DNA of 53,808 bases from Melioribacter roseus (GTDB lineage Bacteria > Bacteroidota > Ignavibacteria > Ignavibacteriales > Melioribacteraceae). A program made the translations under genes and the position numbers. The notes under the pieces were generated by a model, which was not told where the DNA came from, did no database searches, and saw only the letters and a program-made list of their open reading frames with translations. Positions 15,147-20,499 of the stretch are shown here, one piece after another; position 1 is the first letter of the stretch, and every line of letters starts with the position of its first letter. The stretch is from the NCBI GenBank assembly GCA_020722005.1, contig DYLP01000016.1, positions 1 to 53,808 of the forward strand, given 5' to 3'.

Positions 15147-17027
15147 ATGCCTGTCGGCGAAGTCTATTATCCATCAGAAGAAGTAATCAAAAACGCCAAC
15201 ATAAAAAACTGGGACGAATTGAACGAAAGAGCCACAAAAGACTACGAAGGTTTCTGGGAAGAAATGGCAAATGAACTTGATTGGTTTGATAAATGGCAAA
15301 AGGTTCTTGATGATTCCAATAAACCATTTTATAAATGGTTCACCGGTGCTAAAACAAATATTGTTTACAATTGTTTGGACCGTCATATTAAAACATATAG
15401 GCGAAATAAACTTGCACTTATCTGGGAAGGTGAAGACGGGCAATTACGTACCATGTCGTATTTTGCTCTTCATCGCGAAGTATGCAAATTTGCCAATGTA
15501 TTAAAGAGTATGGGTGTGAACAAAGGCGACAGGGTTACAATTTATATGGGACGAATACCAGAATTAATTATTGCCATGTTAGCTTCTGCACGTATTGGGG
15601 CAATTCATTCTGTCGTATATGGAGGCTTTTCTGTGGAATCGCTGGCTGAAAGAATTGAAGATAGTGACTCGAAAGTATTGATTACAGCCGATGGAGCATA
15701 TCAGAGAGGAAAAATTGTTCCTTTGAAACAAATTGCAGACGAAGCCCTTCAACGATGCGGCACGGTTGAACATGTACTTGTTGTAAAAAGAACAGGACAG
15801 GAAATAAATATGGAATCGGGCAGGGATATGTGGTATCACGAATTGATGAACTTGCCGATTGCCACACAAAACTGCGCATTCGAAATTATGGATGCAGAGG
15901 ACCCATTATTTATACTATACACTTCGGGTACAACCGGCAAACCAAAAGCAATCCTTCATACACATGGCGGTTATATGGTTGGTGTATATACAACTCTTAA
16001 ATATGTATTCGACATAAAAGAAGAAGACCGTTATTGGTGCGCCGCTGATCCCGGATGGATTACCGGTCACAGTTATATTGTTTATGGTCCACTTTTGAAT
16101 GGAGCTACATCATTTATGTACGAAGGTGCTCCAAACTTCCCTTACCCGAACAGGTGGTGGCAGATGATAGAGAAATACGGCATTAATATTCTTTATACGG
16201 CACCGACTGCTATCAGGGGTTTAATGAGGTTTGGCGAATCTTGGGTTAAAAGACACAATTTATCTTCATTACGATTGTTGGGTACGGTTGGCGAACCAAT
16301 AAATCCGGAAGCCTGGAAATGGTACTTTAAAGTTGTAGGTAACGAAAAATGCCCCATAATGGATACTTGGTGGCAAACCGAAACAGGCATGTTTATGATT
16401 ACGCCCACGCCCTCTGTGCCGCTTAAACCTGGTTCAGGTACAAGACCTTTTCCTGGAATCGAAATGGACATCCTCGATGAAAATGGTAATTCCGTTAAAC
16501 CGAACGAAGAAGGGTATCTTGTTATTAAAACTCCATGGCCGGCAATGCTTCGCACCGTTTATAAGGATCCCGAAAGATATGTCAATCAATACTGGAGTAA
16601 ATATCCGGGATATTATATGACCGGCGACAGCGCGAGACGGGACGAAGACGGATATTACTGGATAATCGGCAGAGTTGACGACGTTATAAAAGTTTCAGGG
16701 TATCGACTTGGTACTGCTGAAATTGAAAGCGCACTTGTAAGTCATCCTGCTGTTGCAGAAGCGGCGGCAATTGGATTGCCACATGATGTAAAAGGAAATG
16801 CAATTTATACTTACGTTATTCTTAAAAACGGATATGAAAAATCGTCTGCTTTGATCGAAGAATTAAGAAATCATGTGGCTCATGAAGTAGGACCGATAGC
16901 TAAACCCGAAAGTATTGAATTTGTTGATTCATTACCAAAAACACGGAGCGGCAAAATAATGCGACGTGTTTTAAAAGCACGTGCATTAGGGCACGACCCC
17001 GGTAATATATCTACAATGGAAGATTAA
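15147..17027 (+). CDS. acs: Acetyl-CoA synthetase (AMP-forming)
   Basis: 626 residues, full length for Acs of the ANL superfamily. It makes acetyl-CoA from acetate, CoA and ATP through acetyl-AMP. The phosphate loop is [13 protein letters not shown], the aromatic/ATP motif DTWWQTETG, the hinge region [14 protein letters not shown], and the regulatory acetylation Lys603 is in [11 protein letters not shown], so acetylation control is likely. Preceded by AAGGAGGG. It is followed after 67 bp by a histidine kinase and sigma-54 regulator. It may recycle acetate released by the citrate-lyase-type genes 10 kb away (inference). Confidence 0.96.
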
Positions 17028-17094: not shown

Positions 17095-18279
17095 ATGGAA
17101 GAAGAGCTAAAATTAGACCCAATTGAAATACGATATTACAGACTAATAAGATATCTTACTGACTATATCTATTCTGTAAAAGTCGAGAACGGCAAAGCAG
17201 TTAAAACCTATCACGGACCGGGTTGTGCCGCCGTTACGGGATATACTTCGGAAGATTATCAGAACGACCCAGAACTCTGGTACAGAATGGTACATTCCGA
17301 CGACCGCCCTGCTGTACTCAAGCAAGCCGAAGATGCTCTTGCAGGAATTGAAGTAAAACCCCTCGAACATCGTATCATCCATCGGGATGGTTCCGTTCGC
17401 TGGGTAAAAAACAGCATCGTTTTATCGAAAGATGAATACGGAAACGTAGTTTATTACGATGGACTTATCAATGATATAACCGAATTGAAGAAGGCGCATG
17501 AACTGGCAGAGTTGAAACAAAAGCAACTGATTCAGGCAGATAAAATGGTCGCACTCGGAACTATGGTTAGCGGAATTACTCACGAAATAAATAATCCAAA
17601 CAATTTCATCCTATTAAATGCGCAGTTCCTTAAAAAAGCTTTCGATGATATAATGCCGGTCCTGAAAGAATATGCAGCAGCAAACAACGATTACTATGTA
17701 GCAGGTATTCCATCGGAAAAGGCATTTGTAAAAATTACTCAAGCTCTGGATGGAATTATCGAAGGTTCTACGAGAATCGAAAAAATAACAAACAGTTTAA
17801 AAGAATTTGCAAAAAAAGATTCCGGACGATTGGATCAAGCAGTCGATTTGAATAAAGCAATTGAAAAAGCTGTTATGATTACGTCCAACCTTATTAAAAA
17901 ATCGACAAACAATTTTAAGGTTAATTATAATAGTGATGCTACTAAAATTAAAGGTAACGCACAGCAAATTGAACAGGTAATGATTAATCTAATTGCAAAC
18001 GCTTGTCAGGCGCTGCCAGACAAAAATCGTGGTATCGAAATTTCGACATATCGAAAAGATAATTTCGTGGCTATTGAAGTAAGAGACGAAGGTACGGGAA
18101 TCGAATCCGAAAATATTAAGTTCATTTTCGACCCGTTTTTCACTACTAAAAGAAATTCAGGCGGTACTGGTCTCGGTCTTTATATTTCGTATAACATTGT
18201 CAAAAATCATGGCGGCGATATTCTTGTGGAAAGTAGCGTTAACGGAACTAAATTTACTATTCTTCTACCTATAAATTAA
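17095..18279 (+). CDS. PAS-domain sensor histidine kinase
   Basis: 394 residues with no membrane segment, so a cytoplasmic sensor. A PAS/PAC domain spans about residues 20-130 (VHSDDRPAVL, HRDGSVRWVKNS, GLINDITELK). A short coiled coil leads into the phosphoacceptor His163 in SGITHEINNPNNF. The ATPase domain shows the N box NLIANACQAL, G1 VRDEGTGIE, F box FDPFFTTK and G2 GTGLGLYI. This is the NtrB/AtoS-like subclass that usually pairs with sigma-54 regulators, which is what the next gene encodes 10 bp downstream. The PAS ligand is unknown. Confidence 0.94.
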   Translation: MEEELKLDPIEIRYYRLIRYLTDYIYSVKVENGKAVKTYHGPGCAAVTGYTSEDYQNDPELWYRMVHSDDRPAVLKQAEDALAGIEVKPLEHRIIHRDGSVRWVKNSIVLSKDEYGNVVYYDGLINDITELKKAHELAELKQKQLIQADKMVALGTMVSGITHEINNPNNFILLNAQFLKKAFDDIMPVLKEYAAANNDYYVAGIPSEKAFVKITQALDGIIEGSTRIEKITNSLKEFAKKDSGRLDQAVDLNKAIEKAVMITSNLIKKSTNNFKVNYNSDATKIKGNAQQIEQVMINLIANACQALPDKNRGIEISTYRKDNFVAIEVRDEGTGIESENIKFIFDPFFTTKRNSGGTGLGLYISYNIVKNHGGDILVESSVNGTKFTILLPIN

Positions 18280-18289
18280 AAGAGGGAAA

Positions 18290-19708
18290 ATGGGAATAGC
18301 AGACTATCCTGAATTACCAATTTTACTGGTAGATGACGAAGAACAATTTCTCTACAGCGTCGAAACTTCATTAAACTCCGATGGCATTAATAATATCAGA
18401 TTGCAACACGACAGTACTAAAGTACTGGAAATGCTCGAAAAAGATGAATTCTCTTTAATCGTTCTCGATGTAAATATGCCGGGGATTTCTGGACTTGAAC
18501 TTTTGCCTAAAATAAAAGACAAATATCCGGAAATACCTGTAATAATTTTAACAGCTTTAAACGATGTGGAGAGTGCAGTCGAAAGTATAAAATCGGGGGC
18601 TTATAATTATATCTTAAAACCCGTCGACAATACCCGTCTGGTTACAACTATCAGAGGAGCGCTTGAATACAGGGAAGTGCTTTCCGAAAATCGACGATTG
18701 AAAGATTATTTACTCAAAGACAAGATTGAAAATCCGGAAGCCTTCGAAGAAATTATCACTAAAGACAAATCGATGCGTTCCATCTTCAAATATATCGAAG
18801 CTATTGCAAATTCTCCTTTGCCAGTTCTAATAACCGGCGAAACAGGTGTTGGGAAAGAATTAATTGCCAGAGCAATACACAAAGCAAGTTCAAGAGACGG
18901 TAACCTGGTTGCTGTAAACGTTGCGGGCCTGGACGATACATTGTTCTCCGATACTCTCTTCGGTCATAAAAAAGGCGCTTTTACTGGCGCCGAACAGGAT
19001 CGAAAAGGATTGATCGAACAGGCGGAAAAAGGGACACTCTTTCTTGATGAAATTGGGGATTTGAGTATCGAATCACAGGTTAAATTGTTACGACTCATCC
19101 AGGATAACAAGTATTATCCGCTCGGCTCGGACCTTCCAAAACAGGCAGATGTTAGAATAATTTGTGCTACGAATCTGAGTATTGAAGAAATGAAGGAGAG
19201 CAACAAATTCAGGAAAGACCTTTATTACAGACTTCAAACTCATCATATTCACATTCCTCCACTGAGAGAAAGAAAAGATGACATCCCTTTACTTATCGAT
19301 AATTTCCTTGAGAAAGCCGCCGAAAAACTTAATAAGAAAAAACCAACTCCGCCTAAGGAACTTTATACGCTCCTTTCAAATTATCATTTCCCTGGCAATA
19401 TAAGAGAACTCGAAGGATTGATATACGATGCTGTCAGCATACATCGATTTGGGGTATTGTCGCTCGACTCGATACGCAATAAAATTTTTACAGATATTAA
19501 AAAAGATGTAGACCTGGAAAGTACAGAAGAAAATCTCAGCAAGATTGTATTCCCCGAAAATTTACCGACGCTTAAAGAAGTTGAAGAAGCTCTGATTCAG
19601 GAAGCTCTCAAAAGAGCTGATAACAATCAATCGATTGCTGCCCGATTACTGGGTCTTAGCAGAAGAGCCCTCAATAACAGACTCAACAGAAAAAAACAAT
19701 CCGAATAG
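18290..19708 (+). CDS. Sigma-54-dependent response regulator (NtrC family)
   Basis: 472 residues in three domains. The receiver (about 1-125) has phosphoacceptor Asp60 in LIVLDVNMPG and Lys near ILKPVD. The AAA+ domain (about 155-395) has Walker A GETGVGKE, the sigma-54 contact loop GAFTGA near residue 232, and Walker B GTLFLDEIGD. The C-terminal Fis-type helix-turn-helix (about 440-468) reads NQSIAARLLGLSRRALNNRL. Paired with the upstream kinase. The likely target lies directly downstream: repeated TGCCACA sites and a sigma-54 promoter precede the next gene, so this module and its output are encoded together. Confidence 0.96.
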   Translation: MGIADYPELPILLVDDEEQFLYSVETSLNSDGINNIRLQHDSTKVLEMLEKDEFSLIVLDVNMPGISGLELLPKIKDKYPEIPVIILTALNDVESAVESIKSGAYNYILKPVDNTRLVTTIRGALEYREVLSENRRLKDYLLKDKIENPEAFEEIITKDKSMRSIFKYIEAIANSPLPVLITGETGVGKELIARAIHKASSRDGNLVAVNVAGLDDTLFSDTLFGHKKGAFTGAEQDRKGLIEQAEKGTLFLDEIGDLSIESQVKLLRLIQDNKYYPLGSDLPKQADVRIICATNLSIEEMKESNKFRKDLYYRLQTHHIHIPPLRERKDDIPLLIDNFLEKAAEKLNKKKPTPPKELYTLLSNYHFPGNIRELEGLIYDAVSIHRFGVLSLDSIRNKIFTDIKKDVDLESTEENLSKIVFPENLPTLKEVEEALIQEALKRADNNQSIAARLLGLSRRALNNRLNRKKQSE

Positions 19709-19722
19709 TTCCTGCAAAGGGA

Positions 19723-19822
19723 TGCCACAAAATTGCAGATGCCACATTATTGCAATACCGTAAATTATTTTATTTCTATTAGTTACATTATAACCTGCGA
19801 AAATTAGGAAAAAATGTGGCAA
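19723..19822. promoter_or_regulatory. Repeated upstream activator sites for the sigma-54 regulator
   Basis: TGCCACA-AAA-TTGCA (19723-19737) and TGCCACA-TTA-TTGCA (19740-19754) are direct repeats 17 bp apart. The inverted half-site TGTGGCA follows at 19816-19822, and GCAATACC accompanies two of the three. They lie about 55-155 bp before the -24/-12 promoter, the usual enhancer distance. Binding by the regulator encoded just upstream is inferred. Confidence 0.6.
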
Positions 19823-19875: not shown

Positions 19876-19890
19876 TGGCACGAGCTTTGA
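19876..19890 (+). promoter_or_regulatory. Sigma-54 (-24/-12) promoter
   Basis: TGGCACG-AGCT-TTGA matches the sigma-54 consensus TGGCACG-N4-TTGC at all but the last base, with the exact 12-bp GG-to-G(C/A) spacing. Transcription should start near 19902, leaving a leader of about 23 bases with a strong AAGGAGG (19914-19920) before the ATG at 19925. Confidence 0.75.
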
Positions 19891-19924
19891 GTATTCATAA
19901 GCGAACTATTAACAAGGAGGAAAA

Positions 19925-20341
19925 ATGAAACTTCTTAATAGAATATCAACCGTGCTGTTAGTTACATTTTTTGCAACAAATATTTTTGCGCAGCAACCGG
20001 ATTACAAAAAGTTGATTGAAAAAGTCAACGAGCGTTTCCTTTACAATCTAAATATTGAGCATTCCGGAATCGTTGAATCTTCCATCTTTAATATCATGGA
20101 GGTAAAAAGCAAATTTCCGAATGAAGATTACAGTAGATTGGTTAGAAAATTATATGAACTTGCTTTAGAAGGAGCTAATCCTTCTATTAGATACAAAGCT
20201 CAACTGGCAAGTCTCTACTTTAATTTTTATGATATGTTTGCAGATATTAAAATAACGGAAGCAGAAAAGGAAAATCCGGACCTTTTCTTTCATGAAATTT
20301 CGAATAAATTGATGAAAATACCAGTAGCAGTAAACAATTAA
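19925..20341 (+). CDS. Small secreted protein under sigma-54 control, unknown function
   Basis: 138 residues with a clear signal peptide (MKLLNRISTVLLVTFFATNI, then FAQQ, cleavage near residue 22). The mature protein is about 116 residues, mostly helical and charged, and has no cysteine. I recognise no family. The ribosome site AAGGAGG is near ideal and the promoter is of the sigma-54 type, so the gene is probably silent until the adjacent two-component system fires and then strongly expressed. It is followed by a branched RNA structure. A periplasmic stress or signalling role is possible but only guessed from the regulation. Confidence 0.8.
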   Translation: MKLLNRISTVLLVTFFATNIFAQQPDYKKLIEKVNERFLYNLNIEHSGIVESSIFNIMEVKSKFPNEDYSRLVRKLYELALEGANPSIRYKAQLASLYFNFYDMFADIKITEAEKENPDLFFHEISNKLMKIPVAVNN

Positions 20342-20356
20342 CACCCCCCGCCTTAT

Positions 20357-20454
20357 AAAGGCTGTTCCGAACTGACCGGGGAAGTTTTTTAACACAACTT
20401 CATAGCCTCCTAGATACATTACCCGGAATTGTTTGGAACAGCTTTTTTTATTTT
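20357..20454 (+). terminator. Branched structured 3' UTR and intrinsic terminator, candidate sRNA
   Basis: A long basal stem pairs 20357-20372 (AAAGGCTGTTCCGAAC) with 20431-20446 (GTTTGGAACAGCTTTT), all 16 positions pairing if G-U is allowed, and ends in a T-rich tail. Inside it, CCGGG (20376-20380) pairs with CCCGG (20422-20426) and encloses a hairpin GAAGTT/AACTTC (20381-20386, 20396-20401). A single-stranded segment holding CCTCCT (20405-20410), an anti-Shine-Dalgarno sequence, follows that hairpin. It clearly can stop transcription. The branched top is unusual for a plain terminator and suggests a 3' UTR-derived regulatory RNA. Confidence 0.65.
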
Positions 20455-20499
20455 AAAGAATTAGTTAAGCATTGTAAAATGTATTGAAAAATCATAACT

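Follow-up and report, generated by a model that had tools for sequence, protein, structure and literature searches.

Does a branched RNA at the end of a Melioribacter roseus transcript merely stop transcription, or does it also regulate other messages? The question is raised by a window of 53,808 nt (the whole stretch of DNA that was analysed) in which the gene of a small protein is followed by a stem with a U tail, and this stem encloses CCUCCU, a complement of Shine-Dalgarno sequences. The original prediction was that, after sigma-54 activation, processing would release a small RNA able to block ribosome sites. Our computational follow-up supports this interpretation in part.

Layout of the locus and fold of the element

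The features on which the analysis relies are the following.

17095..18279, + strand: histidine kinase (PAS_3, HisKA and HATPase_c; Pfam)
18290..19708, + strand: NtrC-type response regulator with receiver, sigma-54 interaction and Fis-type HTH domains (Pfam)
19723-19729, 19740-19746 (TGCCACA) and 19815-19821 (TGTGGCA), + strand: candidate activator sites, found by eye
19876..19890, + strand: sigma-54-type promoter TGGCACGAGCTTTGA (pattern match)
19914..19920, + strand: Shine-Dalgarno AAGGAGG of the small-protein gene (sequence)
19925..20341, + strand: ORF of a 138-aa protein, N-terminus signal-peptide-like by eye
20344..20349, + strand: C run (sequence); five Cs in the same-genus relative
20357..20446, + strand: folded element, closed by a 16-pair basal stem (MFE structure)
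within 20376..20426, + strand: inner stem 20376-20380/20422-20426 and side hairpin 20381-20386/20396-20401 (MFE)
20406..20411, + strand: CCTCCT, anti-Shine-Dalgarno core (sequence, fold)
20443..20454, + strand: U-rich tail, intrinsic terminator (sequence)

GAFTGA was seen in the translation of the NtrC-type regulator (18290..19708), whose NCBIfam matches lay below all the curated cut-offs shown. Located 5′ of the promoter, the two TGCCACA copies and the single TGTGGCA are possible sites for this regulator, and TGTGGCAA is retained in L010, the locus of a sister genome (G001). Immediately 5′ of the kinase lies an acetyl-CoA-synthetase-like gene (15147-17027; our own reading of the translation), a neighbour present only in G001 among 20 fetched neighbourhoods. 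The next gene downstream of the element, from 20536, carries CarboxypepD_reg and TonB-receptor plug domains (Pfam).

Fold and sequence matches led us to assign no function to the 138-aa protein. Pfam and NCBIfam gave zero matches, a sequence search of the PDB gave a single one (E 0.64), and the best E among PHROGs was 0.24. Its AlphaFold model is all-helical, in a HEAT/ARM-like arrangement; with this model, Foldseek returned nothing at E 0.001, and VIA gave Z values of at most 9.4 to helical repeats, a level that the tool rates as common.

As predicted, the MFE structure of 20342-20456 on the + strand contained a basal stem of 16 positions (20357-20372 / 20431-20446, 16 pairs including 2 G-U) with its U tail, an inner stem and a side hairpin. 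The 141 nt from 20330 to 20470 folded at -34.6 kcal/mol on the + strand (z -3.77, 0/200 shuffles equal or better); on the opposite strand, z was -0.98 and 35/200 shuffles were as good. CCTCCT had been described as single-stranded, which holds for its CCUC (per-base open probability 0.85-0.97) but not for the last C and U (0.47 and 0.40), which a weak hairpin of 3 pairs, UAG(CCUC)CUA, keeps about half closed; in a local calculation, a whole 5-mer of the motif was open simultaneously with a probability of 0.26. The C run put forward as a second C-rich patch does exist, but at 20344-20349 and not at 20343-20348, and it is not a conserved six-C patch, the same-genus relative having five Cs. Read from the sequence, the element is part of the 3′ UTR, and the two have one terminator in common. 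No Rfam family was found at gathering score, and a second copy was absent from the own genome, where the 17 other BLAST matches were all ≤24 nt with E ≥0.08.

Conservation behind the gene

One further genome of the genus, G001 (locus L010), was present among the family genomes searched, and the element-level comparison is that of the window with this single sister genome. The strip around the motif (20399-20428) was identical at 30/30 positions; in this genome, at least, we did not see the basal stem conserved alone with the enclosed part free to vary. Identity was 91.8% over the element and 89.7% over its enclosed part, in which 5 of 6 changes fell in the hairpin loop (20390-20395), the loop of the side hairpin (20387-20395) being variable between the two genomes. 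For comparison, the ORF was 77.9% identical, with 89.6% at first and second codon positions and 76/139 (54.7%) at third positions, and the downstream DNA was identical at 42/68 positions (61.8%). The enclosed part was thus far more conserved than third positions (p 8e-7) and downstream DNA (p 3e-4), but did not exceed first and second positions, to which it was similar (p 0.60).

To look beyond the genus, we used a protein profile, which matched 30/79 family genomes and 41/164 in an order search that includes them, some matches being weak. The named relatives in the genome collection are MAGs labelled Melioribacter, Ignavibacteriales, Ignavibacteria, Bacteroidetes and, in one case, Balneolaceae. 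A profile match was present in 69/77 loci, and merging by the last 200 coding bases left 41 distinct genes; 36 homologues were retained and 5 with E >1e-15 left out (one of these, L051, also has CCTCC shortly 3′ of its stop). Within 130 nt past the stop, CCTCC or CTCCT occurred in 23/36 homologues, while shuffles gave a mean of 6.6 and a maximum of 12 (n=200). Control 3′ regions, which were uncurated and came from other ORFs of the same loci, had the motif in 10/67 cases (Fisher p 1.2e-6; 16/139 unfiltered). With the same filter on both sides, that is, fully open frames excluded, the counts were 16/26 for homologues vs 10/67 for controls. GGAGG or AGGAG followed the homologues on the same strand in 4/36 cases, equal to shuffles. 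Because related genes are not independent, we grouped the homologues by single linkage at 50% protein identity: the motif was found in 7/13 clusters, against a null mean of 2.0 and a null maximum of 6 (n=500). Two 8-mers, CTTCATAG and TAGATACA, were each common to three groups, on a noisy list of 162 shared 8-mers among 26 representatives (null mean 89).

The 13/36 homologues without CCTCC/CTCCT comprise six with a weaker C-rich relative (CCTCTC in L011, ACCTCT in L015, ACCTCA in L016, GCCTCA in L036, CCCCCC in L014 and ATCTC in L043) and seven with nothing clear (L021, L062, L067, L068, L023, L019 and L069). A genome-wide habit was considered and rejected: in own-genome 3′ regions, sampled from the window and a further 400 kb of the 2.66-Mb genome, CCTCC alone was found in 5/107 (shuffle 3.7) and CCTCC/CTCCT in 12/107 (shuffle mean 6.7, maximum 10 of 30), a mild excess at most, far under 23/36. 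The motif was present in 10/77 regions of the tandem-gene subset (shuffle 4.0, maximum 6) and in 1/21 regions with terminator-like ends (shuffle 0.9).

The homologues agree with the proposed sigma-54 control. TGGCAYN5TTGW stood 49-67 nt before the start in 25/35 of them, one of the 36 having no upstream DNA (shuffle mean 0.02, maximum 1 of 500). A kinase and an NtrC-type regulator lay upstream of the homologue in 17/20 fetched loci, the exceptions being L080 and L084, where neither was seen, and L083, which shows a distant regulator only. Among 17 named loci, which partly repeat the 20 fetched and have ≤3 kb of upstream DNA, both genes were present in 11.

Two arrangements of motif and terminator were seen. 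In the enclosed form, a basal terminator stem surrounds the motif or a variant, and this form occurred in four genera: the window's genus (2 cases), g54 (4, one with ATCTC only), g31 (2, with CCTCTC) and g16 (2). In the simple form, the motif lies 5′ of a terminator hairpin, as in L022, L037, L038, L059 and L060. (L037 also has a long perfect hairpin 3′ of the gene's terminator, perhaps a repeat element.) The basal stems of the window's genus, g54 and g31 have a core TGTTC in common. Across these three genera, 98.3% of cells were paired, against at most 57.1% in slid versions. The covariation set had six rows, with arms cut by hand because a multiple alignment of the ten enclosed elements misaligned the motif. 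In this set, the covariation score was 0.507 vs 0.347 in shuffles and was reached by 0/500; both-side changes were seen in 4/10 pairs, a number that 32/500 shuffles reach. A covariance model built from the two congeneric sequences and run on 75 genomes matched 35/75 at E 1 or better. Full-length matches, at E ~1e-39, came only from the two genomes of the genus; the next was 7e-7 over 46 nt, and outside the genus, matches of ≥85 nt had E 0.008 or worse. Most other matches, of 40-70 nt, were taken for terminators. A spread of the element apart from the gene was rejected, full-length matches being confined to the genus, though the model is a weak test because the enclosed elements that follow this gene in g31, g54 and g16 escaped it. 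Promoter, gene neighbourhood, stem and motif are thus conserved at the level of sequence.

A probable regulatory RNA and the alternatives

Because the 3′ UTR of distant relatives repeats the motif behind the same gene, the element is probably a regulatory RNA, more than a stop signal. The most likely explanation, to which we give a probability of about one half, is a sigma-54-controlled 3′ UTR RNA that would mask Shine-Dalgarno sites in trans. In this view, a small secreted protein would be encoded by a sigma-54-dependent mRNA whose conserved 3′ UTR is the element. Termination would fall to the basal stem and U tail, and the CCUCCU strip between the stem arms, kept free, would pair with the Shine-Dalgarno sites of other mRNAs. 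Once the kinase and the NtrC-type regulator activate the promoter, protein and RNA tail would increase together, and the tail, either processed free or still attached to the mRNA, would lower the translation of any message whose AGGAGG site is strong. Release of the RNA, pairing in trans and repression are what we infer from these traits. Counting against this explanation are the 13/36 homologues lacking CCTCC/CTCCT, the mild excess of the motif in sampled own-genome 3′ regions, the 32/500 shuffles that match the both-side stem changes, and the uneven motif opening and the target scans described below.

The alternative that survives best, unlikely as we hold it to be, is that the 3′ UTR serves its own mRNA through protein binding, stability or processing, CCUCC being a protein or RNase site. 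It would account for conservation tied to this gene, and also for a motif that is frequently predicted to be partly closed. Indeed, opening was uneven across homologues: computed for whole 5-mers at the best site per gene, a choice that flatters the result (GC-rich background 12.6%), it exceeded 0.5 at 9/25 sites and fell below 0.1 at 9/25 (L015, L012, L018, L013, L031, L035, L039, L066 and L020). Yet it is simpler to read the motif as an exact match to the complement of the Shine-Dalgarno core, and the fold surrounding the motif varies between genera.

That target scans gave none is also in favour of a role in the own mRNA. Scanning 384 gene starts by duplex gave no clear target, only a mean slightly better than inside genes (-9.25 vs -8.34). 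TAGGAGG-N2-12-ATG sites were fewer than those of a reversed-pattern control, both in the own genome (21 vs 29) and in G001 (33 vs 40). Strong ribosome sites are a minority in the own genome, since GGAGG, AGGAG or GGAG stood ahead of ~24% of the genes sampled (n=388) and 54% had not one of six patterns, with starts taken from a simple gene caller whose choice favours Shine-Dalgarno sites. A TAGGAGG search brought up eight secreted-looking proteins of at least 500 aa led by this sequence, four in the own genome (L147, L159, L169 and L171) and four in G001 (L144, L146, L148 and L166); Pfam gave no matches for the first 500 aa of six of them. Candidate targets, as leads at most, are the long secreted-protein genes L171/L148, L169 and L159/L166 and a 138-aa protein that both genomes conserve (L163/L164). 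The good duplex ranks of candidate targets are circular, because candidates were chosen for TAGGAGG.

A mere intrinsic terminator, its loop decorated with a C-rich motif that has no pairing job, comes second among the alternatives and seems improbable to us. A stable stem is directly followed by a U run, as in a plain intrinsic terminator, and outside the genus, with its two genomes, the whole-fold model was not found complete; a second job is still compatible with these traits. However, the motif after this gene far exceeds both shuffles and control 3′ regions, and it recurs also in L035, L059, L060 and L022, where it is 5′ of the terminator hairpin. Within the genus, the hairpin loop drifts and the motif strip stays constant. 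The view that the element is more than a plain terminator was upheld on these grounds, namely an enclosed strip kept in the sister and CCUCC/CUCCU found again in distant genera where this gene ends.

Pairing in cis, that is, repression of the mRNA through its own ribosome site, was rejected as very unlikely. The own leader does carry AAGGAGG, with a predicted duplex of -13.3 kcal/mol, but across 25 homologues own pairs were no better than swapped ones (mean -8.51 for self, -8.65 permuted, p 0.64, with the first motif site of each UTR), and the leaders of L013 and L035 lack GGAGG despite a strong 3′ motif. The own leader is thus not the preferred partner, which points to action in trans.

Finally, we give next to no credence to, and rejected, a small reverse-strand gene of which AGGAGG would be the ribosome site: the reverse strand does read AGGAGG-CT-ATGAAG, and enrichment of CCTCC on one strand equals that of GGAGG on the other, but frames are not conserved between the window genome and G001 (4 codons in the window vs 22 in L010, an 84-aa reverse ORF being only 22 in L010, and 6 and 29 codons at an acetate-kinase-like gene in the two genomes), and fold and U tail are strand-specific.

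Known RNAs and other 3′ UTRs

If the preferred reading, masking of Shine-Dalgarno sites in trans, is true, the element would act in the manner of FlmE (CJnc230) or of the alphaproteobacterial anti-Shine-Dalgarno RNAs. CJnc230 of Campylobacter appears to be the closest precedent. In Campylobacter jejuni, this 98-nt RNA is processed from an RpoN-dependent mRNA, 3′ of the coding part, and has a single-stranded 12-nt stretch with a putative anti-Shine-Dalgarno; in its targets, it pairs with start codon and ribosome site (PMC11187230). It differs by a CCUU motif between two stem-loops and by following the flagellar hook gene flgE; the gene 5′ of our element has no Pfam or NCBIfam match. Processing and targets were measured for CJnc230, whereas for the element of the window they would be predictions from sequence.

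CcsR1-4 also carry a C-rich motif. These RNAs of Rhodobacter sphaeroides arise by processing of a 3′ UTR, that of the small-protein gene ccaF1 (PMC8625941). They differ in being four homologous RNAs behind an RNA-binding DUF1127 protein, unlike the secreted-looking protein here. The NfeR1 / alpha-r14 family keeps the anti-Shine-Dalgarno CCUCCUCCC in unpaired regions while stem sequences vary, and is related by citation to the cuckoo RNA family (PMC10746234). Its RNAs belong to Alphaproteobacteria, have three hairpins each with CCUCCUCCC and use their own RpoD-type promoter; the window element has one CCUCCU and no Rfam match at gathering score. As in 3′ UTR-derived small RNAs with an anti-Shine-Dalgarno motif, the core is conserved (23/36 homologues vs 10/67 controls). 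As for Hfq-dependent small RNAs, PF17209 was unmatched in the 99% complete draft genome; control rings were matched in 5/14. By the features tested, the element belongs to none of those RNA families. Judged by title, searches of an open-access library gave no paper dealing with regulation or small RNAs for this lineage. If the preferred reading is true, a conserved two-component/sigma-54 unit joins a secreted protein and an RNA arm in a lineage without a found Hfq, much as FlmE does for flagella, and one motif, one promoter and one gene neighbourhood would make a compact, testable model.

CCTCCT also precedes the terminators of an acetate-kinase-like and a ferredoxin-like gene, both named from our own reading of the translations. 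CTTCAT-n-CCTCCT is the complement of AGGAGG-n-ATGAAG, and since CTTCATAG stands beside the motif in the window and in the acetate-kinase-like UTR, its complement reads a ribosome site followed by ATGAAG. A speculative extension, which we would not expect to prove right, is that, in these bacteria with no detectable Hfq, several 3′ UTRs (of the small secreted protein, the acetate-kinase-like and the ferredoxin-like gene) carry the antisense of the whole translation start beyond the Shine-Dalgarno core. Such an RNA set might silence messages that begin with Met-Lys and have a strong ribosome site in front, as is typical of secreted proteins, and tie this shut-off to a sigma-54 envelope signal. 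Family-wide, CAT preceded the motif at a spacing of 2-9 in 6/23 sites (null 2.6, p 0.03), at 4-9 in 4/23 (p 0.13) and at 0-9 in 9/23 (p 0.0015), a weak and post hoc statistic, the idea having arisen after the data were seen; TCA, taken as a comparison, gave 6, 4 and 6 at the same spacings.

In the acetate-kinase-like gene (C31, L121 ~1813, G000:C31:148312; L198), CTTCATAGCATAACCTCCT lies ahead of the terminator. Compared with G001, 3/42 positions differed around the motif, 13/92 in the UTR and 50/272 in the aligned coding part; the terminator stem is still paired in G001, where one G-U reads as A-U. In the ferredoxin-like gene (C13, L104 1501, G000:C13:31104), ACTACCTCCT is immediately 5′ of the terminator, as in L059.
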